DNA of 64,000 nucleotides from Xanthostigma xanthostigma (lineage: Eukaryota > Arthropoda > Insecta > Raphidioptera > Raphidiidae): the NCBI GenBank assembly GCA_963575645.1, contig OY754464.1:83984948-84048947 (forward strand). The letters run 5' to 3'. Shown here piece after piece: positions 32,492 to 57,138 of the stretch (positions are counted from its first letter, which is position 1; every line of letters starts with the position of its first letter). Below the pieces are notes generated by a model, which saw only the letters and a program-made list of their open reading frames with translations, did no database searches and was not told where the DNA came from. The position numbers and the translations under genes are program-made.

Positions 32492-33929
<1,438 letters not shown>

Positions 33930-38432: not shown

Positions 38433-38786
38433 ATGAGCTCATCAAATAAAACCACCTCGCGGGGTGGTAAAGGGGCCAACAAGGACACAGAACACGCCCC
38501 CGGTGGCGAAAAAACCAATAAAACACATAAAAAATCAGACGGCAAATCTGACTCTGGCGGTGGAAATTCCGGTAAAAAGGGCGGCAAAGGCAGTCACCAA
38601 CAGGCATCTCACCATGACAATCGTAACAATCAGATCGATAAATCAGAGGACGCCGAGGTCAAGAAAAAGGTGCACACCGTCATGGAAGCGACGCTGAAGA
38701 ACGAGGAGGAGGTGTACTTGGCTTTGGTCGACTGTAATTACAATATGGAACTTGCTATCGAACAACTCTTAGAAGGAAACGCACAG
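38433..38786 (+). CDS. lig: lig coding exon 1: UBA domain
   Basis: First ATG after the acceptor TTTTGTTACAG (ending 38401); 118 codons, phase 0. A Gly/Lys/Ser/His-rich start is followed by a UBA domain, [20 protein letters not shown] to [11 protein letters not shown]. Confidence 0.92.
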
Positions 38787-41700
38787 GTAATTGACATTAA
38801 TCGGCATTCGGATTTGTTTTGGCAACGCACGCTTTAAATGGCGCCCACTGTTTTTGAATTAATTTTCTTGATGGCGAGAGCGGTGTCATCAACTGATGCA
38901 GCAATCTTCGGTAAATCATACGAATCAGCAATGATTTATTGTATTAGTCGCTGACATTTCCTTCTTTTGGATGCAGCATCACTAATGCCGGGTTGCAAAA
39001 AGCATTGTCAGAATATCTGATTTGACATTGGCCTTATAACAAAAAGCACGAAAAATAACTGATCGCTCGAAACAATATTTTTTTAATCTGTGTATACTTG
39101 TAAATAACATCGTTTTTTGTACGATTTTCACTTGGAAACAACCTTTTCAATCGCATTTTTATCGAAATTTAGCTTGAAAAGCTAGTTCTTTTCATGTAGA
39201 GATCAATTATTTGTTTTTACGTGGGCACAGTCCAATGTTTTGAGTTTGACGACATTGGACTGGCCCAAAAAAAGTTTAGTGTGAATGGCTATTGCTGCAA
39301 ATGGGACAATAATTTCCATGAAAAACATTGCCCCGCTTAGCTTTAGTCGAAACATGCTTCACTAAAAACGCAAATTAATGGGAATTTTAACGATTTGCAT
39401 TGTAAATTGTAGGGTGAATGGAATACATTCAAAAAGAAAAAGAACCGTCAGACTAGTACAAGCAAGGCTGAAACGGGTGGCGACGTTACAGCTAACGCAG
39501 CTACAGAAGATTGGGATACGCCTCCGAGTGGTCCGCCAGCCGGAGGTGACCGAGATCGATCTCGTACGCGGGGAGGAGGTCCACCTAGACACAGAGGACG
39601 AGGCGGTAATTATTATTATGACCAATTACAAAGTTGATTTTTCCGTGTGACTTTCTTGTTGCGGTTCGGACTCTTGTAATTTCAACTGATTTAACTCAGC
39701 TGTTTTCTAGTTCCTACTTCTCACGCAAAGTGTCTCTTCTAACGCTGCGCAGCCAACGAAAAATTCATTGACAACGTTTAATTAACTTCAAATTAGTTGT
39801 GAAAAGAGTACCAGTTTTTATTTAATTGAGAAAAGCACTTCAGATAGCATCTAATTAAAGTAATGAAATATACTTTTATCGTAAACTAGCGGTCCCGCCC
39901 GGTTTCACCCGGGTGCAAGAGAATGAATGGGGAAGGAAGGGACATGGGTACACACATTCATCTTAGTTTGCCGAGATGAATGTTGTGTCCAAATTTCATG
40001 ATGATCGGAGTTACCGTTCAAAAGTTTTTGTCGATAAAGAGCAGTATTTAAACTTTTTTTAATAATAATTTTTTTAAATCAATTAAATAAAATTAAAATA
40101 AATTTAAATGTAAGCCTTAGAAGAAAGCAATGTAAAAAATAAAAAAAAAAAAAATAAAAATATATTTACCCAACGTGGGGCTCGAACCCACGACCCTGAT
40201 ATTGACAGTCGCATGCGCTACCGATTGATCTACCTGAGGTGTTCTTTCATCACTAATATGAGTATATCTAAGTTAGTGCATTTCACATGAATAAGAAGCT
40301 TATTTTTGAGATACTTTTTGCAGCATTTTTCATTAAAGCTCCTCTCCTAATGGTCGTAGCGTAATATTATATAGCCTATAGCCTTCCTCGGTAAAAGGGC
40401 TATCCAACAAAAAAAAATTTATTCAATTTGAACCAGTAGTTCCTGAGATTAGCGCGTTCAAACAAACAAACAAACAAACTCTTCAGCTTTATATTATATT
40501 AGTATAGATATGTTGTCGTTTGATATGTCATCATTTTGAGGTTAAAAAATCGTGCGTGGCAACTGCAGGTTTTTTCTGATTGGTCTATGACTACCACAGA
40601 GTGAGGATGAAGGAGGGAGTCTATCAGTTCCGACAGGTTGAAAATATTTTGTTTTGAAATTATCCTACAGGAGGACGTAGAGAAAATCGCGAAAACGACA
40701 GAGACGACGGCGGGCGTAATGACGGTGGCTTTGGAGGCGCTCGACGTAACCGTATGCAAAATGGGCCACCGCGAGGTGGCGGTTCTGGTCGCGGAGGTCG
40801 CGGCGGAGGTAGATTGGGTGGACCTCGTTCGTTCCAGTCTAGAGACGGCGGGAGATCGGGATACAATTCACGGGCTCCCGTGGTCGATACTTGGGACATG
40901 GACTCGGCACAACAAAATACTCAACGTAAGTTGCGATTTTTTTCAATTTATTTGTGATTTTGTTTATCGTTATCGCATTTAAAAATTATCTCTTTTGTGT
41001 TCCGTGCAAAACGCAACACTTATGGAATTACTTAAGGACGTAGTCCTATGTTCAAGCTCGTTTTCAACCGTTATTTCAGATTTTTTTTTAATATCAAAAT
41101 AATGTACAATGTTTTCAATTTTGTTACATGTTTTTACTGACATCGTAAACTGAGAAAAAAAAATTTTTTTTGCTTATTTTACGCCATTTTATAATTGTTT
41201 TGTTAACCTAAAGTAGACAACTTTAAATTGAGGGTAGGTGGGTAGCGCGGGTGAGAACGTCACTTGAAGTCAACTGAATTATAAAAATTAAATTGGTTAT
41301 TGTTTCGTAGGCTTGTGGCTCTATCCCGTACTAGAAATAAACATTTTTATTGATAAATAACAAAATGGCGGGTTTTAGAAAAAAAAACAACGAGAAAATC
41401 GTGATTTTTTCGTTGAAAATCGGTTAAAAAAAATAGAAATAATTTTTATAATTAAGTAATTCTAGTACCGGACGGAGCTATTGTTGTGTAGAATACCCTG
41501 TGAAAAATTTAAAGCAATCGGTTGTATACAATTGTTTCAATCACCCGCGCCCCTTAGAAAAACGTAGTTTTGAGAAAAACGCGTTTAAAGTTTTAATTTC
41601 AGATTTCTTACAAAAAAATAAAAATGAATATTTACACTAATCAGTTATGCCTGGTGTATAGTAAACCTTCCGTTTCTTCAAAGGCATCGTTTTCTGTTAA

Positions 41701-44700
41701 TTTGTTTGCTCTACTCTGCGAGAGTATAAGGGTAACGTGATAACAATTGAGAGGTAAGAGCAGGTAAGAGTCTTACCGTAAGACCGTTGCTGCTCTCGAC
41801 TATATGCTATAGCTTTGTAAATATTTAATATTTCGGTCTAAAATTTTTACAGTATTTTCTCAATATAATATACTTACTTAAAATGTAAAAAAAATAAATT
41901 CGTTTTTTCAAAACCCGAACACCAGACTACGTCCTTAAGTGTCCGTCCGTTTGTAGGAGGCGATTTTTTACTATTTGACGTGAAAATGTGAAATTTACCA
42001 CAGAGATAGAATGTCACGAATGTGGTGGTCCAAATACAGACGTGAAGTATAAAAAGTTGCATTCTGATTCTGGGGATTACTTTCAGGAGGTGAATTGAAA
42101 AATGAAAATAACATTTTATGATTTTCGCAGCTATCGACACGTGGGACAGTTTTCCGCAACCGGAAGACTGGGACAACGAAGAGTACACGGGCTCGTTGGC
42201 GGACACGAAAGTGTTTACGCCAAGCAATGCCAACGAGGCTGCCGAGACGCCGGGCGGCGGTGCCGTCCCTCCGGGCGCGGTGCCTGCGGGACCACAACAA
42301 CAAGACTCCGCGATCGTCAGTCAGGAGCCGCCGTCGGTCGTACAACAGCTACATAACGAAGTGATCGCGGCATCGGTTACGCCCGAAATACATCCGCCGC
42401 CGACGGCCGCCCAACAGTTGACGCAGGCGCTCGAACTCAGAGCCAGCCAACCGCCGCCACAAGTTTCACCTCAACAGGTTAGTACACTTTCTGCTGTGTT
42501 CTTAAAGTTTTGTTACAATCGAAATCTGACTGCATCATTGCACCGTCATATTGTGGCTTTTATATGTAACTGTGAAATATCTAAACCAGTGTTTTTCAAC
42601 CTTTTTCATGATGCGACCCCCCTGGTATGAAAAAATATTTCGCGACCCCCAGATCCTTCGCTTTTTTATCATGTATGTATGTGTATGTTACAGTGTTACA
42701 AATATTCATTCCATACGACGTTTTTATACGTCTCCATAATTAGGATTCGGATATAAGTACATAATATAGTACGTAAAACACATTATTTCACAATTATGTA
42801 CATACATCGAATACGTATATCCTTTTGTTAAAATTCTCTTACTTAATAAATCAATCTTTTTAATCTTTATTGTTTTTGACGTGATAACGTCTTATAAATA
42901 AATTGATGAATCACCAATCTTATAAATTGATGAAACACCGGCTGCATGCACGAAAAAGTGTAACGTTCCGCCTGACCCTGTGCGTGCTTTTCTCGAAAAC
43001 GGCCCTAACGATTTGGATGAAATTCACTGAAAAGGGATTTTGGGGGGCAAAAAATCGTTTTAGCTAGGTCTCATCTCTCGAAAAAATCGTTTTCATACAA
43101 ATTTTATCATTATAAAAATAAATTTTTTGACGTATGAAAATACTTAAATATTGTAAGTAGGTTTTGGAATTTTATATAAACAGTGAAACAATAATAATTG
43201 TTTTCAAAATATTATGACAATTAATCTTTGAGACTTAAAATAAATACGAAAGAAAGAAAGTTAAAAAAAACAATTACTTATTATTATAGGTGGTGAGTAT
43301 TTTAATACATAAAATTAACCTAAATTTGAAGCGAAAGATGCAATATCATAGATTCGAATTATTATAATTATTTTATTTTTATTTTATTTATTTATTTCCT
43401 CAAAAAATATACAATTATATGTAGAATTTAGGTTATGTATTACGGAATACGTTATCACGTAAAACTATCGTCCGTAAACCGACTTTACAGACAACCAATT
43501 TTTTTTACTTAAATTCTCTCGACCTTTGGCGACCCCCCTACAGAAGCTTCGCAACCCCCCAGGGGGTCGCGACCCACAGGTTGAAAAACACTGATCTAAA
43601 CTGACGGCGTTTTATACAGTCACGTCGGATAGGTTTTTCTTCTTTAGCGGCGTTGTACACTTTTTTTGTAATGGGTAAAAAATGTTAAACTCGCGTCAGG
43701 ACACGTGACCTGATCGAAAATTCGTAAGACGTTAATATTCAAGTTTTCACTTCTGCCGGCACTCCCGGAGTGCAACCCGTCTTTTTTTTTTTAATACAAT
43801 TTTAGCGACATGTCTGATCCCAACTGTACACCATTTTTCAGTGAACAGTTGTATACTTAGTCGTTCGAGAAAATGATCCATTCCTAAAATAACCTAATCG
43901 TCGCGCTTGTTGTTTGTTGTAAGTGGGGAAATTAGAAATTGAGAAAATTTGTTTTGATTGCAGGTATCGATGCCACCAGCTCCCCAATCAACAACATTGA
44001 GTGCCGCGCAATCTCAATATCTTAGTCAATTGACTCAGCAAACGTCAGAGAATATGAAAGCAGCAGCTGCGGCGGCTGCCGTTTCGAATGCTGTTCAACA
44101 ATCGACGTACCAGAGTATACCATATTCGGCGTCAGCAGGTCAGTACCAAGTGTCATTTATGCGGATTATTAATGAGTTCAACGAAAAGGTCTGAATAATC
44201 GACGAGTTCGCTTTATTAGTTCAGCTATTTCTACTTTTTAGTTTGAAAATTTACTTAGCTGCGATTGCATCGCTACTCATTTAATTTGTCGTTCTTGCGG
44301 AACTCTTTGATTTGCTGTGTTTAAATTTGATTTCCGATAATCTGTACGAATCATCGAGGTTTTACTTTCGTAGTGCTAGTTTTGGCTTGCGCGAGCCAAG
44401 TGACAAAAAGAGATAGCGATAAATGCGCTAGCTATTCCTTCTTTGTTCAAACAAAAACGAGACAATTCAGAAATTTCCAATAATAGTCGCTCTGACATAA
44501 TATGTTCGAACCGTTTGATTGCAGCGAATTCTTATAATTCGAGCGGTTACGGTGCAACAACAAATTACACCAGTGCCATACAACAAGAACAACCGACTGT
44601 CGTCCAACAGCAGCCGACCAGAACGAAGACGCAGAGGGCGAGGGTTCCGCCTCCCTCGAAGATACCGGCAAGCGCAGTGGAGATGCCCGGCGATTTGAAC

Positions 44701-47700
44701 ACGAGCATCGGTTTTCTAGACGTGCAGTTCGGCGGACTCGATCTCGTATCCGACAACAATTCGTTCGAAAGTGTTGCGGAAGTGAAGTATTCAAATAGTT
44801 CAGTACTCGATTCGGTTCCTGCGTCGACGCCTGCGACTAATTTGGACATTAATTCTGTGAATCAATCGTTAGATGCGTACAGTAATTCGTCGGCAAGTAA
44901 ACAGCAGAGCGCGCAGTCGAATTTAAATTCAGCATTGGTGCAAGCCCAGAGTCAAATCGTAAGTTTTTTACAGTCAGCGATTTTTTTTAGAGATTTTTAT
45001 TTCTGTTAAATTGCGTTCTAATTGAACTATGAATTGAAAGTGTGATTGAAGCTGTCGACGCATTTCTTTGTCGTGTTGTGTTGCAACGCAATACGAATCC
45101 TTTGCTTCCAGAAAATAGAGATATGTTCGCATCTTAAGAGTATTTGTCCCTGCAAATACCCCCTGCACCCTTCATCTCAAATCTTTTCCCCTCGCCTAAA
45201 AACGGTTTGCGCTCTCCCGACGCTATTTTTAAAGCTAGAGGGTTCTGGTAAACGCCAAATGAAAGACAAAGAATCAGACTACAGATCCTTCAGGCGAATT
45301 TTTTGAAAAACAGTTTCGCCTACGTGTGAAATATTACGTAACTTATTATTTTTTTCAAAAGGTTGTAAGTTTTTTCAGGAATTTTTTTTCAAAAAATTCG
45401 CCTGAAGGATCTGTAGTCTGATTCATTGTCTTTCATTTGGCGTTGAGCGCGAACCGTTTTTAGGCGAGGGGAAAAGATTTGAGATGAAGGGTGCAGGGGG
45501 TGTTTGCAGGGACGAATACTCTTAAGCAAACCTGACTTAAATTAAGCCCTAAAATTGCATAGCCTCTGTAATATTTTTGAGGGTATTTTATTCAAGCAAC
45601 TGTACAACTTGGATTCTCAGTTAGTAATAATAATTTATTAAAATAAAAAATATTCTTTAACAGAATGGTTACATAACAAGTTTAACTAAGGTCAGTTCTA
45701 TAATTTAAAGTTATAACAACCTCTAATCATGCATACACAAGAGAGAAGTTGCCGTTTCCCTTCATGTAGGCAGCCATTTTTGTCTGGCTTTCCGAGCTCC
45801 TGATTGGTTTTCTTTCGTGAAGTTGCTTGCAATATTTCGAACAGTTCAATCAATATTCTGGCAGTATATCTTCCAAGGATATGTCAGCTATACTAGTATT
45901 ACATAAATTGGCGACGAGTCCAAAAAATTGAATTTCATTTAATTTATTTTGACGTGATAACGTCTTATAAATTGATGAATCATGTCAAAATAAAAAGATG
46001 AAACACCGGCTGCATGCACGAAAAAGTGTAACGTTCCTAAAGTTACTAAGTGAGCGACTAGAATGCCTTCGGTAATTTTGAAGCAGATATCATCAACCAA
46101 TTGAGATGAAAATTTGTATACACGTTTAGTTTGAATGACAATGCATGGTTAGCTGTGTGACGTCACTCTAAATCCAATATGGCGGACTTCTAAAGATGGC
46201 GGACTAAGTTTTTGACGTGATAACGTCTTATAAATTGATGAAACACCAGCTGCACGCACGAAAAAGTGTAACGTTCCGTAATGTTCCGCCTGACCCTGTG
46301 CGTGCAAGCGAGAGCGCAGTAATGTATTATTAAATATGATATTCGAGTGGAATACGTTATCACGTAAAACTATCGTCCGTAAACCGACTTTACAGACAAC
46401 CAATTTTTTAACAAAGTCGTTGTTTTGAGTGAATGTTCATATTTTTATCGATGTTTCTTTTATACTGCATGTGTTTGATTTGTTACAGCTATCGAACACA
46501 GAACAAACAAACGACCATCTGTCGTCATCGGTGAACAGCAGTTATTCGTCGTCAAGAAGTTCGGGCAGCGTACAACAACAGCAGCAGACTAGCAATACGC
46601 CGCAATCGGTGGTCAGTCCCATAGATGTCAATAAAACTGCCGAAGTAGTTGCTCATTCGGGCTACGCGCAGCCCACGCAGCCGAACTCTTATCACCAAAC
46701 GTACCAAAGCCAGAAAACGAACAGCTCACCTTACCAATCGACGCCTGCGTACAGCTCGACTAACTACTCTGCCAACGTTCAGGTATGCACCGTTCTCTTT
46801 TTGTCCTTATCGATTTGAAACGATCTGAACTCACGTAGTCGGGTTTTATTTAAAAAATGATGAGACGATGACGAGACCGAAAGATAAGCATCTAGCACAG
46901 AACTTCATCGAGGAACGAGTATTTCGTTTCTTGTGTCCGGTTCTGCGCTACGCTTTTCTTAAAGATGATTTGGCATTCTGATACGAAACGAGTTAAAATT
47001 CAGCCGCAGATGTGTTTCGGATGCATTTCGTAACGCCGAAACAACTTGGTTACAGGTGACGTCGTCGAGTTCGTATCCGCCGAGCCAGTCGACGAACAGT
47101 TACAGTGCGAACTCGGCAAACAACAGTTCGAGCGCGGCCGTTGCGGCGGCGGCCTACAACAGCAATAGCAACCAGCAAAATAGCAGCGCAGGCAACAGCT
47201 CTTATCAGACCAGTTCCTATTCTACGACGGCGTACCAGTCGACGGCGCCGGCGTTCGCTGCCATCAGCCAACCGGCTGCGTTCCCCACAAATAATCAGTA
47301 TCAAACCAATCCGAGTCAGTCGGTTTATGCCGCCGCAGGTATGTTTATTTTATTTTTCGATCCATTCGCAGTGCCCGATCCTAAAAAACAGACGTTGGTC
47401 TCTTCCTTTTGAGGATTTCCGTCGAAGTGAGAGGCGCGTGCGCCTCTCATTTCAATGGAAGTCCTGTAAAAGTAGCGGGTCTTTGAATTGACCTTGGGCC
47501 GAGTTTTTAAAGGAGGCGGGATGATATTTGACCATAGTAGGGTTTTTACTCTGAAATAGATGAACATAATAATAAAATAAATCGATGAAGTTTGCTTACC
47601 AGTTAGATTTATTTATAAAATTTAGAGAACAGTCACTTTACATCAAAGTCACAGTTTTTAACATAATTATCCTAACTTCAAAACTATTTAATTTTTATAA

Positions 47701-50700
47701 CCAATCCATATCAACCAACTTTTAATCACTTAAGGAGGTTGATCCGTTACAGTCCCAATCAAAAGTAAGTCGAATTCTAAATGGGAACTTTTATAGTTTA
47801 TAAGTTGATGATACCAATAAATTTATGTAAATATCTGTATTTTACATATTTTTTGCAGTAAATAATTAAAAAAAGAAATTAGAAGTAATAAAAATTAAAA
47901 TTAAATCATTAAAAAGTTGAAAATTCAGTTAAAATTGTTAAATCTGTCAAGAATAAAAGTCCATAATCGAAAAGTGCTAAGGTTAAATAATTTTTTTATT
48001 GATTAAAAGTCTCCTAATTAAATTGGAAAAAATATTAAAATATGCGTACGACATCGATGCTTTACATAGATAGTTTTTGGAACTGCTGACATTATTTGGT
48101 TATTTGCAAAAAATTAAAATGAACAGTTTGCATGCTGGCTTGACATATTTTCCATAAGACTACATGTAAAAGTTTTTTTTAATTTTTAACTTTATAAATC
48201 TCCTAATGATTTTGGATTTTTTACAGAAAATTTTGTCATAAAAAAATCTATTAAAAAAACTTTATTTCAGATTTTTTTCATTATCTTCGTAAAACGGCTC
48301 AATCTCCTTAATGTTAACTTAACTATCAACAGAACTTGCACTGAACTATCTTAATGAACTGGATTACCGACTGAACTGCCTTTAGTTCCCTCACTGAACT
48401 CGCGAGCGTTCGGTCTGTCTACTTTTATCAGCCGGGGCCAACGCCTCGTGCTGCCGAAAATCCTATGTCAGCTTTGGACGTTAAACTTCCGCCGGCTAAT
48501 GAACCTCAGTTCCATTGTTGTGTCGTTTTGACATCTATCATAATAATAATGCAAAATTGGCATATTTACTGCACAGGGGCGTACTATTACAATCCTCAAA
48601 GGAAGAGACCAACAGACAACATCCAGTAGCGCGCTTATGAGTTCAAAATAGATCGTCGCAAAGAACTTTATTCAACTCATGCGCGTTATTCATGTTTTAT
48701 CATGCCTAAAAACCGAACCCTAAATAGCCATTTACCGACTGGTGACAATTATTTGTCATAACTCAATGAAGATTCCTACTAGCTCGGCCATTGTGGAGTA
48801 ATGAAAATAAACGTAACTATTTTCTGAGTCGTAACGAAATAGTCGGTAACAACAACTCCCTGTTGTTACCCATTGAGACTAAAATTGAGAGGCCGAATGT
48901 TTTCGACATGGAGTTTATTCATAACCGGCTAACCTCAAACCAAAACATTGAATCGTGCTGTTTGGTGCTGTTAGTATTGACAGTTTTTTTTATAAAGAAA
49001 TAAATAGATATTTACAACATCTCATTATAATTAAAATATGAATAACGCGCAATTGTTGAATAAAATTATGGGCGCAACTTGTAAGCTAAGTCATGACCTG
49101 TCAGCGCGATGAATGACTTAAGACTACTAGTTACGCCAATAACTATATCAGTTTCGAGGCATTTTCTAAATGAACTTAATGCAAATGAAATGAATTTTTG
49201 TGTTTCAGGACTCAACAATTCGAGTACGTACCCAACGCAGTACAACAGCTATAACACGGCGAGTACGAATCACAAGCTTGGCACCGCGAGCTCCAATAAA
49301 GACAGCCAGTCATACGACAGCACGGGCAGCGCGGCCGTCAGCAGTACGGGCGTCGTCAGCAGCGTAACGAACGCTGTCAGCGCGTCGGTTGCACTCACGG
49401 GACTCTCCAACAGTCAGACGAACACGAGCACGACGGCTAGCAAAGTCACGACCACTTCGGCAGGTTTGTATAAAGTTAACCGGGACTTTTTTTTCCGTAA
49501 TCGAATTTTTGTTTGTAATTAAAAATGATGAAACGATGACGAGACTTAGAGATTAGCGTTCAACACGGAACTTAAACAGGGAGTAAGTTTTTTATTTCTT
49601 GCGTATGGTTTTGTGGTGTGCTTTTCTTGAAGCTGATTTATGGCAGTCTGACCTAATTTACGCAAGGGACTCATGGCGCAAATGAAAATTTCGTAAAATA
49701 ACAAATGTTTTTAATTTTCATATGTTTTTATTTGAGAGTTTTTGTGGTGCCCTTAAACCGACTGTCGCCAATTTTGTTTGGTTATGTTAGCGTTTTTATG
49801 GACTATGCGCAGGTGGGCGCAGCTGAGCAGTTTCTGAAAGTCGCGTTCGCGGTGACGAAATGAGAAAATTTGTGCAAACCTTTGTCGCGAACTGCTCCGA
49901 AAATCATTCATAGGCGTTGGCTAATATAGTTCCGAGTTGGAATTTTTACCCTACGAGCGAAATCTGCTTTTTATTCATAAGTTTTATATTTAAACTCGCA
50001 AATAGAATCGGTGGACACCCCCTGATGTACATTAAAATATCAAGATTGTGCGATGAGCCTCTTTAAAATAAACTACAAGACTGGATTAGTTTGGATTTTT
50101 TTACACTTTTTGTATTGAAAAAGGCGTTGTTTTGTTTATAGCGAAAAGTGGCATAGTTCCAAATATGCCTCCGGGCGTGGCGCCAATGGTGGGAACGCAA
50201 TACATTATGGGTCAGGCCGGTATGCCATTCTATCAGCAACCTGTTTACTCGTATGAAGATCTCCAACTGCTTCAACAGAGAATACCGCACATGGTGAGTG
50301 CTATTTAATATTTATATTCCAGCGAACCATCCATTTTACTAATTCTACACATCGATGAAAATAGTTCGTTATAAAGAACGGAAACCCTTATTTTACCCAC
50401 TTTCTATAGACAACAGCAAATAGGAATGTTGACTGTATTCAAATAAAAAAATTGGTTGTCTGTAAAGTCGGTTTATAAAGAAACATTGATGAACTCTCTG
50501 ACGTCACGCGAGAAGAGAGAGAAATGCGTACAAGCCGATGCTTGGGCCGATCGTGCCTCTCTCGCTTATACCGCGCTCTCGCTTGCACGCTCAGGCTCAG
50601 GCGGAACGTGACACTTTTTCGTGCGTGCAGCCGGTGTTTCATCAATTTATAAGACGTTATCACGTCAAAAACATAATTTTAATATTATGTGGTAATTAAA

Positions 50701-53700
50701 TCAATTTCAAGTGACGTGACAACGAACACCAAACAGAGTGCATGACGTCACTTGTTCCTAAACATCATCATGCGCTGTTCGCGCTGCCAAAACGCTTCGT
50801 TGTTTGGTCAATTTCTGTGTAATTTCATCGAAATTCGCTTATTTAACCGTGCTATTATTATTTTTTTTTAAATATGATGAGACGATGACGAGACTGAAAG
50901 ATAAGCATCGAGCGCGGAACTTCATCAAGGAACGAGTATTTCGTTTCTTGTGTCCGGTTCCGTGCTTCGCTTTTCTTAAAGGTGATTTGGCATTCTGATT
51001 TATAATGAAATGAAAGTTCAAGGAGCTTGTCATTTTTAAACGCGAAGTTTATCTGACGCTTTGTGTTCGAACGAATTTCAGACGACAGGGTACTATGATA
51101 TGGGCTATCAGACGCCAACGTCGCTGGCGACAGGGCGTGAAGGAGGTCTCGCAAGCGTAGCGTACTCAATGTCGGACGGGCGGTTTACGCGAGCCGATAA
51201 CAATGCCTCACCGGTGCCTTCTACAATCTCGCAACAGGTAACGTTTTATTTTTAATCTTTACTCGTGCAACTTTGACTGTGTGACGGCTTATGATATTGT
51301 AAAGCGTCGCTATTTGTATTATCGAATGGCTTTCAGTTTTCACGCTCTTGTCATTTGGAACAATGTGAACACTTTGCTTTATTGGATATGCATTTTAAAA
51401 AAGAAAAAAAAAATTGGTTGTCTGTAAAGTCGGTTTACGGACGATAGTTTTACGTGATAACGTATTCCGCTCGAATATCATACATTACTGCGCTCTCGCT
51501 TGCACGCACAGGGTCAGGCGGAACGTTACACTTTTTCGTGCGTGCAGCTGGTGTTTCATCAATTTATAAGACGTTATCACGTCAAAAACTTAGTCCGCCA
51601 TCTTTAGAAGTCCGCCATATTGGATTTAGAGTGACGTCACTTTATTTTTCGAGTTATTTTCAGCAAGCCCTTTCATTTGATACCCATATTGTAGGAAAGC
51701 ATAAAAAACTTAGTCCGCCATCTTTAGAAGTCCGCCATATTGGTTTTAGACTGACGTCACTTTATTTTTCGAGTTATTCTCAGCAAGTCCTTTCATTTGA
51801 TACCCATATTGTAGGAAAGCATAATAAACTTAGTCCGCCATCTTTAGAAGTCCGCCATATTGGATTTAGAGTGACGTCACTTTATTTTTCGAGTTATTCT
51901 CAGCAAGCCCTTTCATTTGATACCCATATTGTAGGAAAGCATAATAAAATTAGTCCGCCATCTTTAGAAGTCCGCCATATTGGATTTAGAGTGACGTCAC
52001 ACAGCTAACCATGCATTGTCATTCAAACTAAACGTGTATACAAATTTTCATCTCAATCGGTTGATGATATCTGCTTCAAAATTACCGAAGGCATTCTAGT
52101 CGCTCACTTAGTAACGTTAGGAACGTTACACTTTTTCGTGCATGCAGCCGGTGTTTCATCTTTTTATTTTGACGTGATTCATCAATTTATAAGACGTTAT
52201 CACGTCAAAAAAAAGTCAAAAGATAATCAATATCATTGTCTATTTTAGTTTTTATAGTTCTAGCAATGCAAAGACAATATATGAAAGATTTTAAGTTAGC
52301 GCGCGTTTTGTTTCCCCGCAAAATTCACCTGTAAATAGAACAATAATATTCCGTTGCAGACGACGACACAGGCACACCAGGCTCAACCTATGTTGAATGC
52401 GACGCTTCCGCCGGGATATGCGTATTTCTACGGTACCGGTATGTTGCCCGGCAGTTTCCAGTACGGTACTCCTGCAATATATCCACAGATGCCGACCGCG
52501 ACAAACGCCCACGGTTCAACGACGAGCAGTCAGTATCCGAAACCGGGAAGTTACGGAAGCGGTTACGGTTCGGGATACGATGCGCTGTCTCAGTCGACGC
52601 AGGACTACAACAAGAGCGCCTACGTGGGCGCTAATCAAACGCAGAACAAGACCGGAGTCGCCGTCACGACCGGCTCGTCCGTCGCAACCGATTTGACAAC
52701 GGCCATGTACGGCAAAACGCACGCTGCGCTCGGAAAAGTCAATGTGAGTTTGTGAAAGACTGAAACGTTTGCGCGAATAGATTAGAAATCGACGGGGAAA
52801 GTGTTTATTGACGGTAACTCTGTTTCAGTCGTACGAGAAACAAGGTTTCCACTCAGGGACTCCGCCGCCGTTCAATTTGGCCGGAAACCAAAGCGCCGGT
52901 ATGGCACCGAGCGGCACGTATGCGCCCCACTTGTTCATACCGACAATGGCGCCGCATCAAACGCATCACAATACGCTTATGCAACACCAGCCTCTGCATC
53001 AGGTTAGTGCCGCGTATTTTCGAGCGATGATTTTTTGTCCCCAGTTTCTTTGTTCAAACCATTTAAACTAATAGAAATCAAATGCGTTTTCAATTGGGCT
53101 TTTTGAGGATTCGAACAATTTGTATATTTATTTAATACATTTTTTATGCCGAGTTATTAATATTCACATCTCGTTCGTCTATTTGTCGAACTTGGCTTCA
53201 CTGTGGGAAATAATGACTCACATATTTTAAAGAGGATTGTCATCGATGCTAGCAGTAATTTTTAAGAGCTTTTCTGCGCGCTAGAATTCTTACAGCCAGA
53301 TGTCAGTACGTAATTCCTGACACTTTAAGAATTTCGAGCTCGCAGCTAGTTGAACAATGAACGCGTCTATTTACCTAGCAAACACATTTAACGTTTCTAG
53401 ACTAACTTTTGTGTAGAATGACAGTAATCCAATTGAAAACGTTCTTAAGTGTAAATATTCTTATCTGTTTTGTTGAAATATAATGAGTGTTCAGGAGGCT
53501 TTATATTTACTATATCGTACCGTAACTTAGTTTTCATTAATTGTTGATTTGCTGGAAAGACAACCATAATGTGTTGACTTGGTAATAACGAGTTTTATCT
53601 AGACATTAGCTGTGCTAGCGAACGCGAAAATTTCCATCGGAATGATGGGAAACGCATGCGCAAATTGTTTAAAAATAGACTGCGCGTGCGCCTCCCGTCA

Positions 53701-56700
53701 TTCACGTTCGCGAATACAGCTATGTTGTCGTTGACCAATGTTGATTCTCATGTCGACAATGTAGACGGTTTTGTTGATTAAAAAAAAAAACCCGGAATGC
53801 TTCTATTGAATCAACATTACTTTTGATCAAAAATAAAAATCTCATGTAGTCTCTTCAGGATTTCCATAATCTGCACACTTTAATGAGTGCTTTTTTGTTT
53901 CTTGTCAATCTCTTTCCCTTTTTTGTTTTTTTGATTACATTAAAAATATTTTCAGCACCGCAACAAAATTAATTTTTGAGCTGTGATAATTTTTGTTTTA
54001 TTCTTAGCTCTTCAGAACAAAAATAACTGACACTCACAACGCATGAATTCAAAATTAGTTCGTGTCTTTTGGCATGTGTGTTTTAGCATGTTTTTTATAT
54101 ATATATATTTTATATAGTTTATGATCGATTGAGTTTGTTTTTTTTTTCCTAATGCATGAAGTTTTAATGATTTATTGTTAAGTTTTTTTTTTTTGGTAAT
54201 TTTGTATTTTTTTTTTCATCTGACTGGGTTTTTTCTGCTTGTTTTTGTAGATGGACGTGCGCCATGCTGGCAGACGCACGGTAAGTCCTAGTGCCTTAAT
54301 GCGTTCCTGGTCATTTTCCTAATTGTTCTTGCTACTGCGCACTGCTTTGTCCAACCGATCGTTTCGTTTCAATTTCATTTATTATCTTCAATTGTAAATG
54401 TTTTTTTTTCTGTTTATTTTTAAGTAATGAAATTTCTTTTATTCAACTCATGCGCGTTATTCATGTTTTATCATGCCTAAAAACCGAACCCTAAATAGCC
54501 ATTTACCGACTGGTGACAATTACTTGTCATAACTCAATGAAGATTCCTACTAGCTCGGCCATTGTGGAGTAATGAAAATAAACGTAACTATTTTCTGAGT
54601 CGTAACGAAATAGTAGGTAACAACAACTCCCTGTTGTTACCCATTGAGACTAAAATTGAGAGGCCGAATGTTTTCGACATGGAGTTTATTCATAACCGGC
54701 TAACCTCAAACCAAAACATTGAATCGTGCTGTTTGGTGCTGTTAGTATTGACAGCTTTTTTTATAAAGAAATAAATAGATATTTACAACATCTCATTATA
54801 ATTAAAACATGAATTACGCGCAATTGTTGAATAAAATTATGGGCGCAACTTGTAGGTTAAGTCATGACCTGTCAGCGCGATGAATGACTTATGGTACATT
54901 TACACCTGACAGTTATTGCACGATATTTATGTCGGACACTCATTTTTGCTAATGTAAACAGTCAAAAATTTCTGTCTGACATATGTATCTTTGGAGCGAT
55001 TACATTTGACACTTTTGTCTGTACACTGATGTCAAGTGTCTGGAGTTAAATTGCTGAACCGTTTATACTCGCTCAGAAATTACTAGAAGTTATACTGTCC
55101 GACATATCTCGACATTCTCAAATTTACAATAAATATATGAATAGTTTATACTTACCGCATATATGTGTGTCGTACACATCTGTCTTCCTCAACGAAGCAT
55201 GCAATTTGTGTTGTGATGAAACTTTCAAAAAGAAAAATTGCTGCAAGTGTGATTATTTTGGATATGTTAAGAAAAAAAAGAAAAAAACGTGCTGTATGGG
55301 TTCGGGAATGGATTTTAAGACGTGAAGAACAAGGTGCCTACAATCAATTAATGCGTGAACTCAATCTAGAAGAGCCATCACAATTTTTAAATTTTGTACG
55401 AATGAAGCGGGCTGGTTTCGAAAACTTAGCCTGTAAAATCAGTCCTCTTGTAATAAAACAAGACACAAAATTAAGAAAAGCGATTAGTGTAAGAGAACGA
55501 CTTGCTGTCACTTTACGATATTTTGAAGCAATTTCCATTGCAGCATTGCGTTTCTTTACTCTATCTCTGTAAAGCTTACTTTTAATATCCCACAGTTCGG
55601 GTTTACTTTGATATATGTCAATCAGTTCATCAATTTCACTTTTTAACCACTCTTTTTTATCCATTGTTCCGCACGCGACACTTATTGCGTATTATGAAAA
55701 GTAGACGGCTGGTCAACAAATGCGATTTCTATCGTGCAAGTTCTTGCTTGTGAAAAATCAGTGTTTACATTTATGCGTATAGAAGTGTCCGACACATTTC
55801 TGTAGTCGACAGATGTGTACGACACAAATATATGCGATAAGTATAAACTGTTCATACATTTATTGCAAATTTGAGAATGTCGAGATATGTCGGACAGTAT
55901 AACTTCTAGTAACTTCTAGGATAGTATAAACGGTCCAGCAATTTAACGCCAGACACTTGACATAAATGTACAGACAAAAGTGTCAAATGTAATCGCACCT
56001 TAAGACTACTAGTTACGCCAATAACTATCGTTTGTTATTGCACAGTGTACACATTCATATAATCGTTCTATAATTAATATTCATACTATGTTTTGTATTT
56101 GAATTAACAACGCCGCATAATGCTAAACTTAAACCTTTTGTTTGCAAAATAACATATTTTCTTCTATATTTTGGAACTTAACAATTTTTTCACCAATCTA
56201 GTTTTAAATTTGGTTAGTAGACGGGTTTTACTGTAACATGTTTTTCTTTGTACACACTTCTATAAAATAGCCTGTATAGCGGTCGTGAAATAACACATTT
56301 AACACTAGCGCTGTAAAGTTACGTAATGTAAAATAAACATATTCGCACCGCCGTTTCCATAGTAAATCGTAGTGTAACCGAATGAGAATTGAACGCAGCC
56401 TACGATCCGAAATGATCCTGCTCAAAATTAACTGTCAAAAATTTTGAAAATTCGCTATTTTATAAGAAGTGTGTGCAAAAAATACTCGTGCGTGATTATT
56501 TTATGACGTGACTGTTAAAACTCGCTGGGCACTCGTTTTGCCATGATGTCATCGATTAGATACATTTGCTGCGAGGATGGAAATGACGTCACTGCGGGCT
56601 CCGCTGCGCGGTCGAAAGCTGGATTTCAAAATTAGAATCGGGTCTATTTTTCGAACTCGATTCTCAGCCCACTCCGAGCGAGAACCAATCAGAAAACAGC

Positions 56701-57138
56701 ATCTTGTCACGTGGCCGACATGGGCAGTAGTCGCCATAAGCAAACGTATGACGTCACGGCGTGCGTTCTGTTCAGAGACAATAAACGCCCGATTTTGTTA
56801 ACGTTTAAAAATTGCGTGCGCACCAAAAACGATCTGAAAATCCGGCTTCTGACCGCGCATCGTGTGAAGTCAACCAGCCTAGACACGGTTTTAGTTGAAA
56901 CGATGCGTTTTTGCGTGAGACCCAAGTTGCGAAGCTTTTGCTTGCTTTACTGCGGTTTCTTTATGCTCGATAAATGAATTCAATGGAAATTATACACGGC
57001 GAAGACGGTACAAGTAAAAATGATTTATTTCACTTGCAGGATTCCGGTAACAGCACTGGTCAGCGCACTCAGACGTCGAGCCAGGCCAAACCGGGCGCAA
57101 AGCAGGCTTATCAGAACTCGTATTGGAACGCCGCTTAA
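38433..57138 (+). CDS. lig: Lingerer, UBAP2/UBAP2L orthologue (15 coding exons, ~1194 aa)
   Basis: Cytoplasmic RNA-binding, stress-granule-type protein. Fly Lingerer works with FMR1, Caprin and Rasputin and affects growth and mating behaviour. Exons: 38433-38786, 39413-39605, 40671-40925, 42131-42477, 43964-44138, 44525-44958, 46489-46782, 47056-47338, 49209-49463, 50142-50293, 51082-51237, 52360-52743, 52829-53002, 54251-54280, 57040-57138. All introns are GT-AG and the frame is open throughout. Order: basic Gly/Lys/Ser-rich start, UBA domain (about 74-115), RGG/RG-rich region (exons 2-3), DTWD motifs, conserved [17 protein letters not shown]...[11 protein letters not shown] block (about 481-515), Ser/Gln/Thr/Tyr-rich low-complexity region, conserved [18 protein letters not shown] (exon 10) and a Gly/Tyr-rich C-terminus ending NSYWNAA. 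Introns 7, 9 and 10 contain snoRNA-like sequences. Confidence 0.95.
39413..39605 (+). CDS. lig: lig coding exon 2: basic and RG-rich segment
   Basis: Acceptor AAATTGTAG ending 39412, donor GGCG|GTAATT. Starts [13 protein letters not shown], contains [20 protein letters not shown] and ends in an RG-rich run. Leaves phase 1. Confidence 0.9.
39887..40508 (+). repeat. Repeat B copy with inserted tRNA-derived sequence, lig intron 2
   Basis: Repeat B begins at ACTAGCGGTCCCGCCCGG (39887) and ends CAGCTTTATATTATATTAG (about 40500). It is interrupted between about 40035 and 40310 by ~275 bp that includes an A-rich run and a tRNA-like sequence (40169-40240). Confidence 0.7.
40169..40240 (-). repeat. 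tRNA-Lys-like pseudo-tRNA / SINE head
   Basis: Minus strand from 40240: ACCTCAGGTAGATCAATCGG (A box), GTAGCGCATGCGACTGTCAA, then TCAGGGTCGTGGGTTCGAGC and CCCACGTTGGG (B box and T arm). The TCAGGGTCGTGGGTTCGAGC and CCCACGTTGGG parts match eukaryotic tRNA-Lys(CTT). The anticodon stem has two mismatches and the loop reads CTGTCAA, so it is not a working tRNA-Lys. Best read as a tRNA-Lys-derived SINE head or degenerate tRNA copy. Confidence 0.65.
40671..40925 (+). CDS. lig: lig coding exon 3: RGG box
   Basis: Acceptor TATCCTACAG ending 40670, donor CAAC|GTAAGT. Encodes [18 protein letters not shown], then [19 protein letters not shown], a classical RNA-binding RGG box, and ends [17 protein letters not shown]. 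Confidence 0.92.
41030..41940. mobile_element. TIR element in lig intron 3, TTAA-flanked
   Basis: ACTTAAGGACGTAGTC at 41030 is mirrored by GACTACGTCCTTAAGT ending 41940. TTAA lies at both borders (41032-41035 and 41935-41938), as in piggyBac-type insertions, although the identity also extends two bases beyond TTAA. About 910 bp, no transposase frame. Superfamily assignment tentative. Confidence 0.6.
42131..42477 (+). CDS. lig: lig coding exon 4
   Basis: Acceptor TTTTCGCAG ending 42130, donor CAACAG|GTTAGT. Encodes [20 protein letters not shown], a second DTWD motif, then a Pro/Gln/Ala-rich stretch with two helical segments ([29 protein letters not shown]). Confidence 0.92.
42587..43593. mobile_element. 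hAT-type MITE in lig intron 4, with nested repeat C
   Basis: Terminal inverted repeats CAGTGTTTTTCAACCT / AGGTTGAAAAACACTG are flanked by a perfect 8-bp duplication, ATCTAAAC (42579-42586 and 43594-43601), diagnostic of hAT insertion. The GCGACCCCC-rich subterminal sequence is typical of this MITE type. Repeat C (42874-43506) lies inside it. No transposase. Confidence 0.92.
42874..43506 (+). mobile_element. Repeat C, long form with interior B (copy 4), nested in the hAT MITE
   Basis: Same ends and same ~440-bp interior as the copy at 13013-13599 (CTCGAAAACGGCCCTAACG, TTTAGCTAGGTCTCATCTC). It splits the hAT MITE, so it inserted later. Confidence 0.8.
43630..43790 (-). repeat. Repeat D, copy 2, lig intron 4
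   Basis: Reverse complement of the copy at 12545-12790, shorter in the middle: CTTCTTTAGCGGCGTTGTAC, AACGTCTTACGAATTTTCG (complement) and CACTCCCGGAGTGCAACCCG. Confidence 0.65.
43964..44138 (+). CDS. lig: lig coding exon 5
   Basis: Acceptor TTGATTGCAG ending 43963, donor TCAGCAG|GTCAGT; leaves phase 1. Encodes [18 protein letters not shown], a poly-Ala run and QSIPYSASA. Confidence 0.9.
44525..44958 (+). CDS. lig: lig coding exon 6: conserved UBAP2-type motif
   Basis: Acceptor TGATTGCAG ending 44524, donor CAAATC|GTAAGT. Contains [18 protein letters not shown] then [15 protein letters not shown], the block conserved from insects to human UBAP2/UBAP2L. Confidence 0.95.
45133..45526. repeat. 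Foldback element in lig intron 6 (~394 bp)
   Basis: CTTAAGAGTATTTGTCCCTG at the left is mirrored by CAGGGACGAATACTCTTAAG at the right. The arms (about 45133-45311 and 45383-45526) also share CATCTCAAATCTTTTCCCCT and GATCCTTCAGGCGAATT-type segments. The left arm has about 35 extra bases. No ORF of note. Confidence 0.85.
45947..46409 (+). mobile_element. Repeat C, composite form with one 120-bp-array unit (copy 5), lig intron 6
   Basis: Two left ends of repeat C (TTTTGACGTGATAACG at 45947 and 46209) enclose a cargo. The cargo contains TTAGCTGTGTGACGTCACTC, TCCAATATGGCGGACTTC and AAAGATGGCGGACTAAG. One right end (ATACGTTATCACGTAAAAC, ACAGACAACCAATTTT) closes it. The copy at 51404-52215 has the same plan in reverse but with the cargo unit tandemly repeated. 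Confidence 0.75.
46489..46782 (+). CDS. lig: lig coding exon 7
   Basis: Acceptor TTGTTACAG ending 46488, donor GTTCAG|GTATGC; 98 codons, phase 0. Ser/Gln/Tyr-rich low complexity ([38 protein letters not shown]). Confidence 0.88.
46853..46986 (+). ncRNA. C/D-box snoRNA, U15 (SNORD15)-like, copy 1 in lig intron 7
   Basis: Box C ATGATGA (46857-46863) and box D CTGA (46978-46981). The guide GATGACGAG (46867-46875) precedes a weak D' box CCGA. The middle folds into a long hairpin (outer stem AGCACAGAAC/GTTCTGCGCT with one mismatch, inner stem GAGGAACGA/TCGTTTCTT). GGCATT precedes box D. The guide is complementary to CTCGTCATC in 28S rRNA (from memory), and human U15 has GATGACGAGTCTGA in the same place plus GGCATTTGTCTGA at its end. 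Box D is 74 nt before the 3' splice site, the usual spacing for intronic C/D snoRNAs. Sense to the host gene. Confidence 0.72.
47056..47338 (+). CDS. lig: lig coding exon 8
   Basis: Acceptor TTGGTTACAG ending 47055, donor GCAG|GTATGT; leaves phase 1. Ser/Asn/Ala/Tyr/Gln-rich, for example [19 protein letters not shown]. Confidence 0.88.
47339..48664. other. lig: lig intron 8, first part
   Basis: AT-rich, no exon or snoRNA-like sequence seen. 48300-48660 is less AT-rich (TCAGCCGGGGCCAACGCC; GGCGTACTATTACAATCC) and may be an old LTR-like fragment, but no LTR borders were found. Confidence 0.4.
48665..49142 (+). mobile_element. Repeat E, copy 2, lig intron 8
   Basis: Near-identical to the Dg intron 2 copy. 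Here the site GAATGACTTAAGACTACTAG (about 49110-49129) is uninterrupted, giving the empty-site sequence for the Harbinger insertion in copy 3. Confidence 0.85.
49209..49463 (+). CDS. lig: lig coding exon 9
   Basis: Acceptor TGTGTTTCAG ending 49208, donor GGCAG|GTTTGT; 85 codons, phase 1 both sides. Ser/Thr/Asn/Val-rich ([18 protein letters not shown]). Confidence 0.88.
49521..49660 (+). ncRNA. C/D-box snoRNA-like sequence, U15-like, copy 2 in lig intron 9 (diverged)
   Basis: Box C ATGATGA (49525-49531), intact guide GATGACGAG (49535-49543), degenerate D' CTTA and box D CTGA (49648-49651). AATTA before box C can pair with TAATT after box D as a terminal stem. The internal hairpin seen in copies 1 and 3 is eroded, and box D is 490 nt from the 3' splice site. 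It may be a diverged isoform or a decaying copy. Confidence 0.5.
50142..50293 (+). CDS. lig: lig coding exon 10: conserved C-terminal motif
   Basis: Acceptor TTGTTTATAG ending 50141, donor ATG|GTGAGT. Encodes [37 protein letters not shown] and [11 protein letters not shown], strongly conserved in lingerer/UBAP2L proteins. Confidence 0.93.
50445..50671 (-). mobile_element. Repeat C, short form (copy 6), lig intron 10
   Basis: Starts AAATTGGTTGTCTGTAAAG, ends AAGACGTTATCACGTCAAAA. The interior has GCGCTCTCGCTTGCACGC and ACTTTTTCGTGCGTGCAGC. The hairpin of the GTCGGTTTAC end is deleted. Confidence 0.7.
50870..51003 (+). ncRNA. C/D-box snoRNA, U15 (SNORD15)-like, copy 3 in lig intron 10
   Basis: Box C ATGATGA (50874-50880), guide GATGACGAG (50884-50892), perfect D' box CTGA (50894-50897), box D CTGA (50995-50998). 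The outer stem AGCGCGGAAC/GTTCCGTGCT pairs fully with one G-U, and the inner stem AAGGAACGA/TCGTTTCTT has a 5-nt loop. Compared with copy 1, one outer-stem pair changes from A-T to G-C, a compensatory change. TAAA before box C pairs with TTTA after box D. Box D is 83 nt before the 3' splice site. This is the best preserved copy. Confidence 0.78.
51082..51237 (+). CDS. lig: lig coding exon 11
   Basis: Acceptor GAATTTCAG ending 51081, donor CAACAG|GTAACG; 52 codons, phase 0. Encodes [20 protein letters not shown], then [14 protein letters not shown]. Confidence 0.9.
51404..52215 (-). mobile_element. Repeat C, composite form with expanded 120-bp array (copy 7), lig intron 11
   Basis: Minus-strand copy of the composite seen at 45947-46409: right end AAATTGGTTGTCTGTAAAG at about 51411, one left end finishing at 51588, then cargo with the tandem array, then the second left end (TTATCACGTCAAAA, 52215). 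Both composites share an odd AATCAYGTCAAAATAAAAAG stretch at the outer left end, so they derive from one founder. Confidence 0.8.
51589..52000 (-). repeat. 120-bp tandem array, ~3.4 units
   Basis: TAGTCCGCCATCTTTAGAAG recurs at 51591, 51711, 51831 and 51951, an exact 120-bp period. Units also share CATATTGGATTTAGAGTGAC, GTCACTTTATTTTTCGAG and TTTGATACCCATATTGTAGG. Units differ by only a few bases. Because 120 is a multiple of 3, a 184-codon frame (51454-52008) runs through; it is an artefact. Confidence 0.92.
52360..52743 (+). CDS. lig: lig coding exon 12
   Basis: Acceptor TTCCGTTGCAG ending 52359, donor AAT|GTGAGT; 128 codons. Encodes [19 protein letters not shown], a Gly/Ser/Tyr-rich [14 protein letters not shown] segment and [18 protein letters not shown], as in lingerer C-termini. 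Confidence 0.92.
52829..53002 (+). CDS. lig: lig coding exon 13
   Basis: Acceptor CTGTTTCAG ending 52828, donor CATCAG|GTTAGT; 58 codons. Encodes [20 protein letters not shown] and a His/Gln-rich end. Confidence 0.92.
53003..54250. other. lig: lig intron 13
   Basis: No repeat, exon or snoRNA-like sequence recognised. T-rich toward the 3' end, with long T-runs before the micro-exon acceptor. Confidence 0.5.
54251..54280 (+). CDS. lig: lig coding exon 14: 30-nt micro-exon
   Basis: ATGGACGTGCGCCATGCTGG plus 10 nt encodes [10 protein letters not shown], bordered by TTGTTTTTGTAG and the strong donor GTAAGT. It is in phase 0 on both sides, so inclusion or skipping both keep the frame between exons 13 and 15. 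It is likely alternatively used. Support is from the splice sites and frame only. Confidence 0.7.
54434..56028 (+). mobile_element. Repeat E, copy 3, lig intron 14, split by a Harbinger element
   Basis: 54434-54891 matches the first ~460 bp of repeat E and 56003-56028 its last part (AGACTACTAGTTACGCCAAT). The intervening 54892-55999 is the nested transposon. The 70-codon frame is kept (54562-54774). Confidence 0.88.
54892..55999 (+). mobile_element. Internally deleted Harbinger (PIF) transposon
   Basis: 1108 bp flanked by TTA (54889-54891 and 56000-56002), the Harbinger target duplication. Long inverted arms: GATTACATTTGACACTTTTG at about 54997, mirrored at about 55976-55995. 55216 to about 55530 encodes the N-terminal part of a HARBI1-like transposase ([45 protein letters not shown]). 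From the other side, 55664 to about 55535 (minus) encodes the start of the partner MADF/Myb-like protein ([33 protein letters not shown]). The two frames collide head-on, so most of both genes, including the DDE catalytic core, has been deleted. Confidence 0.88.
56500..56990 (+). promoter_or_regulatory. GC-richer block in lig intron 14 with CRE and E-box motifs
   Basis: Two perfect TGACGTCA sites (at about 56583 and 56749) and a CACGTG (at about 56709) occur within 170 bp, in a block clearly richer in G+C than the surrounding intron. It could be an internal promoter or enhancer. An 88-codon frame here (56711-56977) starts with GTG and shows no domain. Confidence 0.3.
57040..57138 (+). CDS. 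lig: lig coding exon 15: C-terminus
   Basis: Acceptor TTCACTTGCAG ending 57039, stop TAA at 57136-57138. Encodes [20 protein letters not shown] and [12 protein letters not shown], matching the Gly/Gln/Tyr-Trp type end of lingerer proteins. Confidence 0.9.
   Translation, partial: DSGNSTGQRTQTSSQAKPGAKQAYQNSYWNAA

Follow-up and report, generated by a model that had tools for sequence, protein, structure and literature searches.

Three box C/D units in lingerer introns of Xanthostigma xanthostigma, with a predicted Gm2288-type target in 28S rRNA

The gene lingerer (lig; UBAP2/UBAP2L family) of the insect Xanthostigma xanthostigma lies in a stretch of 64,000 nucleotides (nt) that is here called the window: it is C1:83984948-84048947 of a 623-Mb assembly in 28 contigs, which also served as the genome searched. 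Introns 7, 9 and 10 of lig carry one box C/D unit of about 125 nt apiece, all on the sense strand. We consider it very probable that these units are the genes of one intronic C/D small nucleolar RNA (snoRNA) with a predicted target of the Gm2288 type in 28S ribosomal RNA (rRNA), while the site of the Am2281 type next to it is served by a separate family hosted by a gene of the SRCAP type, domino in what follows. This reading proposes an insect guide for a widely conserved 28S site. Together with the second family it would offer a testable case of adjacent guides that belong to one RNA in Arabidopsis and are divided between two gene families here.

The lig units

The host gene, the units and their parts are the following, in window coordinates:

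38433 to 57138, + strand: host gene lig, from its spliced frame and a PF12478 match
46857 to 46981, + strand: copy 1, box C to box D, in intron 7 (46783-47055); SNORD15 24.0 bits, below gathering
46867 to 46875, + strand: copy 1 guide GATGACGAG, upstream of D' CCGA (46877-46880)
46881 to 46960, + strand: copy 1 central hairpin, between D' and C' (TGATT, 46966-46970)
46972 to 46977, + strand: copy 1 GGCATT, abutting box D as in copy 3
49525 to 49651, + strand: copy 2, box C to box D, in intron 9 (49464-50141); no SNORD15 match
49535 to 49543, + strand: copy 2 guide GATGACGAG, upstream of a degenerate D' CTTA (49545-49548)
49549 to 49628, + strand: copy 2 central hairpin
50874 to 50998, + strand: copy 3, box C to box D, in intron 10 (50294-51081); SNORD15 23.6 bits, below gathering
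50884 to 50892, + strand: copy 3 guide GATGACGAG, upstream of D' CTGA (50894-50897)
50898 to 50977, + strand: copy 3 central hairpin
50989 to 50994, + strand: copy 3 GGCATT, abutting box D CTGA (50995-50998); a 6-nt match to 28S AATGCC

The first-pass annotation of the window had placed three copies in three lig introns on the sense strand, and its positions turn out to be right to within a few bases. At the unit ends, box C (ATGATGA) and box D (CTGA) are found in all three copies at the positions listed. As had been claimed, the boxes and the guide are invariant: besides the two boxes, a 13-nt block, ACGATGACGAGAC, that holds the guide is unchanged. The guide itself occurs three times in the window, confined to the lig copies. 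The bodies of copies 1 and 3 are 92.8% identical, those of copies 1 and 2 75.2%, and those of copies 2 and 3 76.8%. With up to 25% divergence between copies, the constancy of both boxes and of the 13-nt block supports the reading of the units as genes of one guide RNA. For the flanks, identities by gapped alignment are uninformative, with random pairs averaging 68%.

The distance from the end of the unit to the 3' splice site is 74 nt for copy 1 and 83 nt for copy 3, again as claimed, and 490 nt for copy 2. From work on mammalian intronic C/D snoRNAs, a distance of 74-83 nt suits splicing-coupled assembly; copy 2, at its distance, may be poorly made.

The central hairpin lies between D' and C' and begins next to D', a position from which it could close the C'/D' motif. 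Over the stretch from box C through box D, copies 1 and 3 differ by nine substitutions, and six of these are accounted for by three hairpin pairs changed on both sides (U-A to G-U, A.C to G.U and A-U to G-C); when nine substitutions are placed at random, 1 of 20,000 placements equals three paired changes. The compensatory A-T to G-C change of the first-pass annotation is real (A-U to G-C, alignment columns 47/92), and two further pairs have changed on both sides. Copy 2 differs from copies 1 and 3 by four pairs changed on both sides, and random placements do as well in 1592 and 1017 of 20,000 cases, respectively; it shows clean exchanges, C-G/U-A and G-C/A-U, at the neighbouring pairs 64-74 and 65-73. 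In the hairpin common to all copies 96.7% of the cells are paired, against 43-54% when the partner is slid. This percentage is reached by 6 of 500 shuffles, and the covariation score by 10 of 500. The fold of copy 3 is clearly better than that of its shuffles (z -3.76), and z is about -2 for copies 1 and 2.

The predicted target and its neighbour

The species' own 28S holds AAGGTAGCCAAATGCCTCGTCATCTAATTAG, within a stretch of 3,346 nt that matches the eukaryotic large-subunit rRNA (LSU) model at 1878 bits. In all three copies GATGACGAG pairs with CTCGTCATC of this 28S over 9 base pairs (bp) upstream of D', which bears out the complementarity claimed earlier, and no other 9-nt antisense match to the LSU stretch is common to the three copies. 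One unpaired A precedes D', and the fifth position upstream of D' is a C, opposite the G of CCTCG. For the arrangement GATGACGAG-A-D', the D'+5 rule thus points to the G of CCUCGUCAUC in all three copies (D' is canonical in one of them). For copies 1 and 3 a duplex program predicts pairing with 28S in the C' region as well, which we read as a by-product of the GATGA common to C' and guide.

In the species' own 28S the third A of CCAAATGCC precedes the target G by 7 nt, which is the spacing of the known site pair of clan CL00045: AtU15 has Am2271 and Gm2278, 7 nt apart, and yeast snR13/snR75 have Am2279 and Gm2286 (PMC3511168, excerpt). The two yeast sites are numbered Am2281 and Gm2288 in an excerpt of PMC8817022. 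From the sequence we confidently predict that the target G is equivalent to yeast Gm2288 and human Gm3792. Methylation of a G of this type is listed for Arabidopsis, tomato, tobacco, human (Gm3792) and yeast, with a further entry for the alga O. tauri (PMC11542601, excerpt). The sources differ, as the human entry for this site is blank in the excerpted table of PMC8817022. Neither 2589 nor 2596 occurs in the excerpted main text of a Drosophila methylation preprint (PMC13228274), and excerpts of PMC8351944, PMC8522698, PMC4430873 and PMC5932544 hold nothing on a Gm2288-type lig guide.

A second three-copy C/D family is found at about C2:35151712-35160571. Each of its copies reads TGATGA...GAGGCATTTGTCTGA (Am2281/Am2589 type) and none has GATGACGAG; the Am2281-type guide GGCATTTGTCTGA is intact in the family. 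A genome BLASTN search with one copy finds just these three. They lie among exons, and the surrounding open frames encode an ATPase with SRCAP as best PDB match and with the Pfam domains SNF2 and helicase C; domino is what we take to be the insect orthologue name for this type of host gene. A likely 3' splice site follows 74 nt after the end of one copy (locus L013). The model of Drosophila snoMe28S-Am2589 (RF00529) scores 28.7 and 24.7 bits in two of the three copies, below its threshold of 37, and gives no match for the third. This Drosophila RNA is like the C2 family in that its GAGGCAUUUGUCUGA is identical there, whereas it differs from the lig family in having a target 7 nt away and the A guide only, with no GATGACGAG. 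In a genome-wide search with RF00529, in which 57 of 112,558 candidates were scored, one place is listed, C8:2138034-2138129 on the minus strand, at a sub-cut-off 27.8 bits; the domino copies are not among the matches listed.

The expression, processing and methylation that we infer for the lig snoRNA would run as follows. Splicing of the lig pre-mRNA would be followed by debranching of the intron and trimming to release each RNA, which would join fibrillarin and the rest of the C/D core proteins. Paired via GATGACGAG with CUCGUCAUC in 28S rRNA, it would guide 2'-O-methylation to the G of CCUCG, which faces the fifth nucleotide upstream of box D', while the neighbouring Am2281-type site would be methylated via the three-copy family hosted by domino.

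At two 28S loci on contig C11 (L006 and L007) other sequence is joined at the junction of CTAG and CCAAATGCC. The predicted target of the snoRNA lies directly 3' of the insertion point of R2 retrotransposons. In two more C11 loci (L004 and L005) the sequences part from one another some 70 nt further downstream, as at an R1 site.

Alternative readings and family assignment

A faithful dual-guide U15 would methylate both sites with one RNA, the G through the D' guide and the A through a D guide, as is listed for Arabidopsis U15. SNORD15 does align full-length, and in copies 1 and 3 GGCATT stands at the place of the U15 D guide; the first-pass annotation was right about its presence before box D in these two, but copy 2 has GGCAGT. 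As a second guide to AATGCC, which was the role proposed for it, GGCATT does not hold up: it gives 6 bp only, abuts box D, is broken in copy 2 and is without the TGT of SNORD15. Where the SNORD15 consensus reads GGCAUUUGUCUGA, copies 1 and 3 have GGCAUUCUGA, three bases shorter, and copy 2 has GGCAGTCTGA. The TGT between GGCATT and CTGA is missing from the lig copies, and the SNORD15-type D guide GGCATTTG for the Am2281-type A is absent, with CTGA directly preceded by GGCATT in two copies and by GGCAGT in one. Owing to the 3-nt shortening, the +5 position falls on the C of AAUGCC, off the known A. Judged by its letters, the box D side of the lig RNA has no working guide, and 6 bp against box D are not credible; GGCATT is possibly a remnant of a U15-type D guide. 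Further, the intact Am-type guide sits in another three-copy family, and an exact search of the genome for the two intact guides at a spacing of 80-110 nt gives no match (their spacing in the SNORD15 consensus is about 104). Given the 6-bp pairing, the missing TGT, the broken copy 2 and the intact A guide elsewhere, we reject the dual guide as very unlikely.

The simplest reading would be that two guides which plant U15 is listed to combine are carried separately here, like those of yeast snR13/snR75. The lig snoRNA would then descend from a dual-guide ancestor, and the separation may have arisen in the insect line or be older. A more far-reaching scenario has an ancestral U15 split in the insect lineage into the lig family (G) and the SRCAP/domino family (A), each of three copies in one host gene with a role in chromatin or RNA binding, with the GGCATT of lig kept as an accessory clamp beside the guide duplex. 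In this complete form the scenario is speculative, and we consider it improbable.

Several repeats do occupy lig introns, and the units could in principle be an interspersed repeat, or a chance similarity, and no RNA gene. This we regard as hardly conceivable. When the 623 Mb are searched by BLASTN with copy 3 (skipping simple repeats and very common words), only three matches appear, all sense and all in this one gene: itself, copy 1 (91%) and copy 2 (76%). The check for copies at unrelated sites, suggested by the first-pass annotation, thus finds none, and on this result we reject the interspersed repeat; in addition, the boxes and the guide are invariant and the substitutions are paired. 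In viral and genome contig collections the pattern of box C, guide and D' has no match, nor does blastn find one in a phage collection; these collections are viral or prokaryotic and uninformative on insect conservation. The 28S pattern has no match in the viral contig collection.

A milder alternative is that copies 1 and 3 are working guides and copy 2 is a decaying duplicate, as its 490 nt to the 3' splice site, its D' CTTA, its broken GGCATT and its position below SNORD15 detection would suggest. On the other hand, both boxes, C and D, and the complete guide are preserved in copy 2, and it has the two compensated neighbouring pairs (64-74 and 65-73), though its count of both-side changes is within chance. 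We consider such decay possible but rather unlikely.

Returning to the lig units as genes of one guide RNA, they are likely an unannotated member of the known clan CL00045. At a loose threshold all 146 positions of SNORD15 (RF00067, of this clan) align with copy 1 (24.0 bits) and with copy 3 (23.6 bits), the gathering score being 75. Like the lig copies, SNORD15/U15 has box C, then GATGACGAG before D', and a long region before a C'-like motif; like copies 1 and 3, it has GGCATT ahead of box D. The lig units differ from it in being 3 nt shorter between GGCATT and box D, with the D guide eroded, and in their host: chicken U15 is hosted by three RPS3 introns and one RFWD2 intron (PMC2653536, excerpt). 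The U15 likeness proposed in the first pass is therefore sound as to layout and C/D family kind, while by predicted target the RNA is a guide of the snR75 type (Gm2288). Yeast snR75 (RF01185) shares the predicted target G, reached via one guide, but its model has 88 positions as compared with about 125 nt. For copy 2 the model snoZ5, of the same clan, gives 20.8 bits (E 4.5) over 49520-49560 only (41 bases). Bm-15/Sf-15 of Bombyx and Spodoptera is likewise an insect C/D snoRNA, with a fibrillarin pull-down for Sf-15 (PMC6458620, excerpt). We rejected identity with it, since the knock-down oligo target published there (same excerpt) is not found in the genome at up to one mismatch.

Genome-wide, SNORD15 lists six places, all sub-cut-off with E about 1 or higher: copies 1 and 3, the three C2 copies (35151741-35160571) and one on contig C9 (48 of 39,705 candidates were scored, and weak signals appear likewise in 12 of 14 control prokaryotes). 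The C9 place (C9:32322788-32322876, 21.9 bits) reads GATGACGAATCTGA (GATGACGA-ATCTGA), in which eight of the nine guide letters agree and a D'-like CTGA follows; GGCATT is not found in its 3-kb locus. A covariance model built from the three lig copies, run on the window and 12 other loci, among them the C9 place and the snR75 matches L022-L029, recovers the three by construction and nothing convincing elsewhere: the next matches, at 23.5 and 22 bits, are the antisense of the same hairpins, followed by 19.3 and 11.9 bits in a locus with an snR75 match (L029).

A number of results speak against a family of guide RNAs in lig. Box D' is the canonical CTGA in copy 3 alone, with CCGA in copy 1 and CTTA in copy 2. 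The terminal stem by boxes C and D consists of weak duplexes, and shuffles are as good in 240, 53 and 233 of 500 cases for the three copies. Some 9-nt 28S antisense match at the same place is found in 464 of 20,000 shuffles of copy 3, so that the pairing alone is modest evidence. By two weaker measures the hairpin also stands out less: four pairs are changed on both sides against a shuffled mean of 1.9 (31 of 500 shuffles are as high), and pair types are matched by 57 of 500. No Rfam model, snR75 included, matches in the window at its gathering score. The SNORD15 E-values for copies 1 and 3 are 0.13/0.17 and 0.03/0.04 in two runs and about 1 genome-wide, and copy 2 has no SNORD15 match even at the loose threshold. 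Copy 3 scores as high with plasmodium_snoR21 (24.8 bits, E 7), which has the same box C and guide. With snR75 (gathering 40 bits; 56 of 83,435 candidates scored) the lig copies are not among the 27 genome-wide matches listed, none of which is above the cut-off. The Rfam check proposed with the first-pass annotation accordingly yields sub-threshold SNORD15 matches for copies 1 and 3 and none for copy 2, and no lig copy among the matches listed for snR75. Rfam scores alone prove little here; the case is made by boxes, guide, position and covariation together.

The host gene and its surroundings

The lig gene could be rebuilt completely: it has 15 coding exons with 1195 codons including the stop, which is the sole one and terminal, and all 14 introns are GT-AG. 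In its product, of which the first 585 amino acids were searched, the Pfam domain UBAP2-Lig (PF12478) scores 60.3 bits against a cut-off of 22.2.

Related genes are known as hosts. In chicken, introns 13, 15 and 27 of UBAP2 and intron 14 of UBAP2L host snoRNAs, namely SNORD121, ACA40 and U66 (PMC2653536, excerpt), and SNORD121A is placed in UBAP2-W introns (PMC4053838, excerpt). The present units suggest that lig/UBAP2 genes host snoRNAs in insects as in vertebrates. Among the papers that a literature search on this point returned, none has a title or listed abstract concerned with snoRNAs in lig introns. UBAP2L, the human Lig homologue, binds C/D snoRNAs in stress-granule assembly (PMC10104854, excerpt); by analogy, hosting by lig could be more than convenience, with host protein and hosted RNA interacting. 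Otherwise the lig family is ordinary, a new member of an ancient guide-RNA clan.

Other introns of lig contain repeats of different kinds. A long near-perfect inverted repeat in intron 6 (45268-45428) has below-threshold matches to several microRNA models on both strands and looks like a small transposon remnant. Intron 11 holds 120-bp tandem units that are 96-97% alike (51586-52000). Two 300-bp stretches, in intron 8 (48667-48966) and intron 14 (54438-54737), share 99% identity and are probably young transposon copies. Upstream of lig, an intact Rho1/RhoA-like open frame of 192 codons lies on the minus strand (32492-33070); it has no introns and could be a retrocopy.

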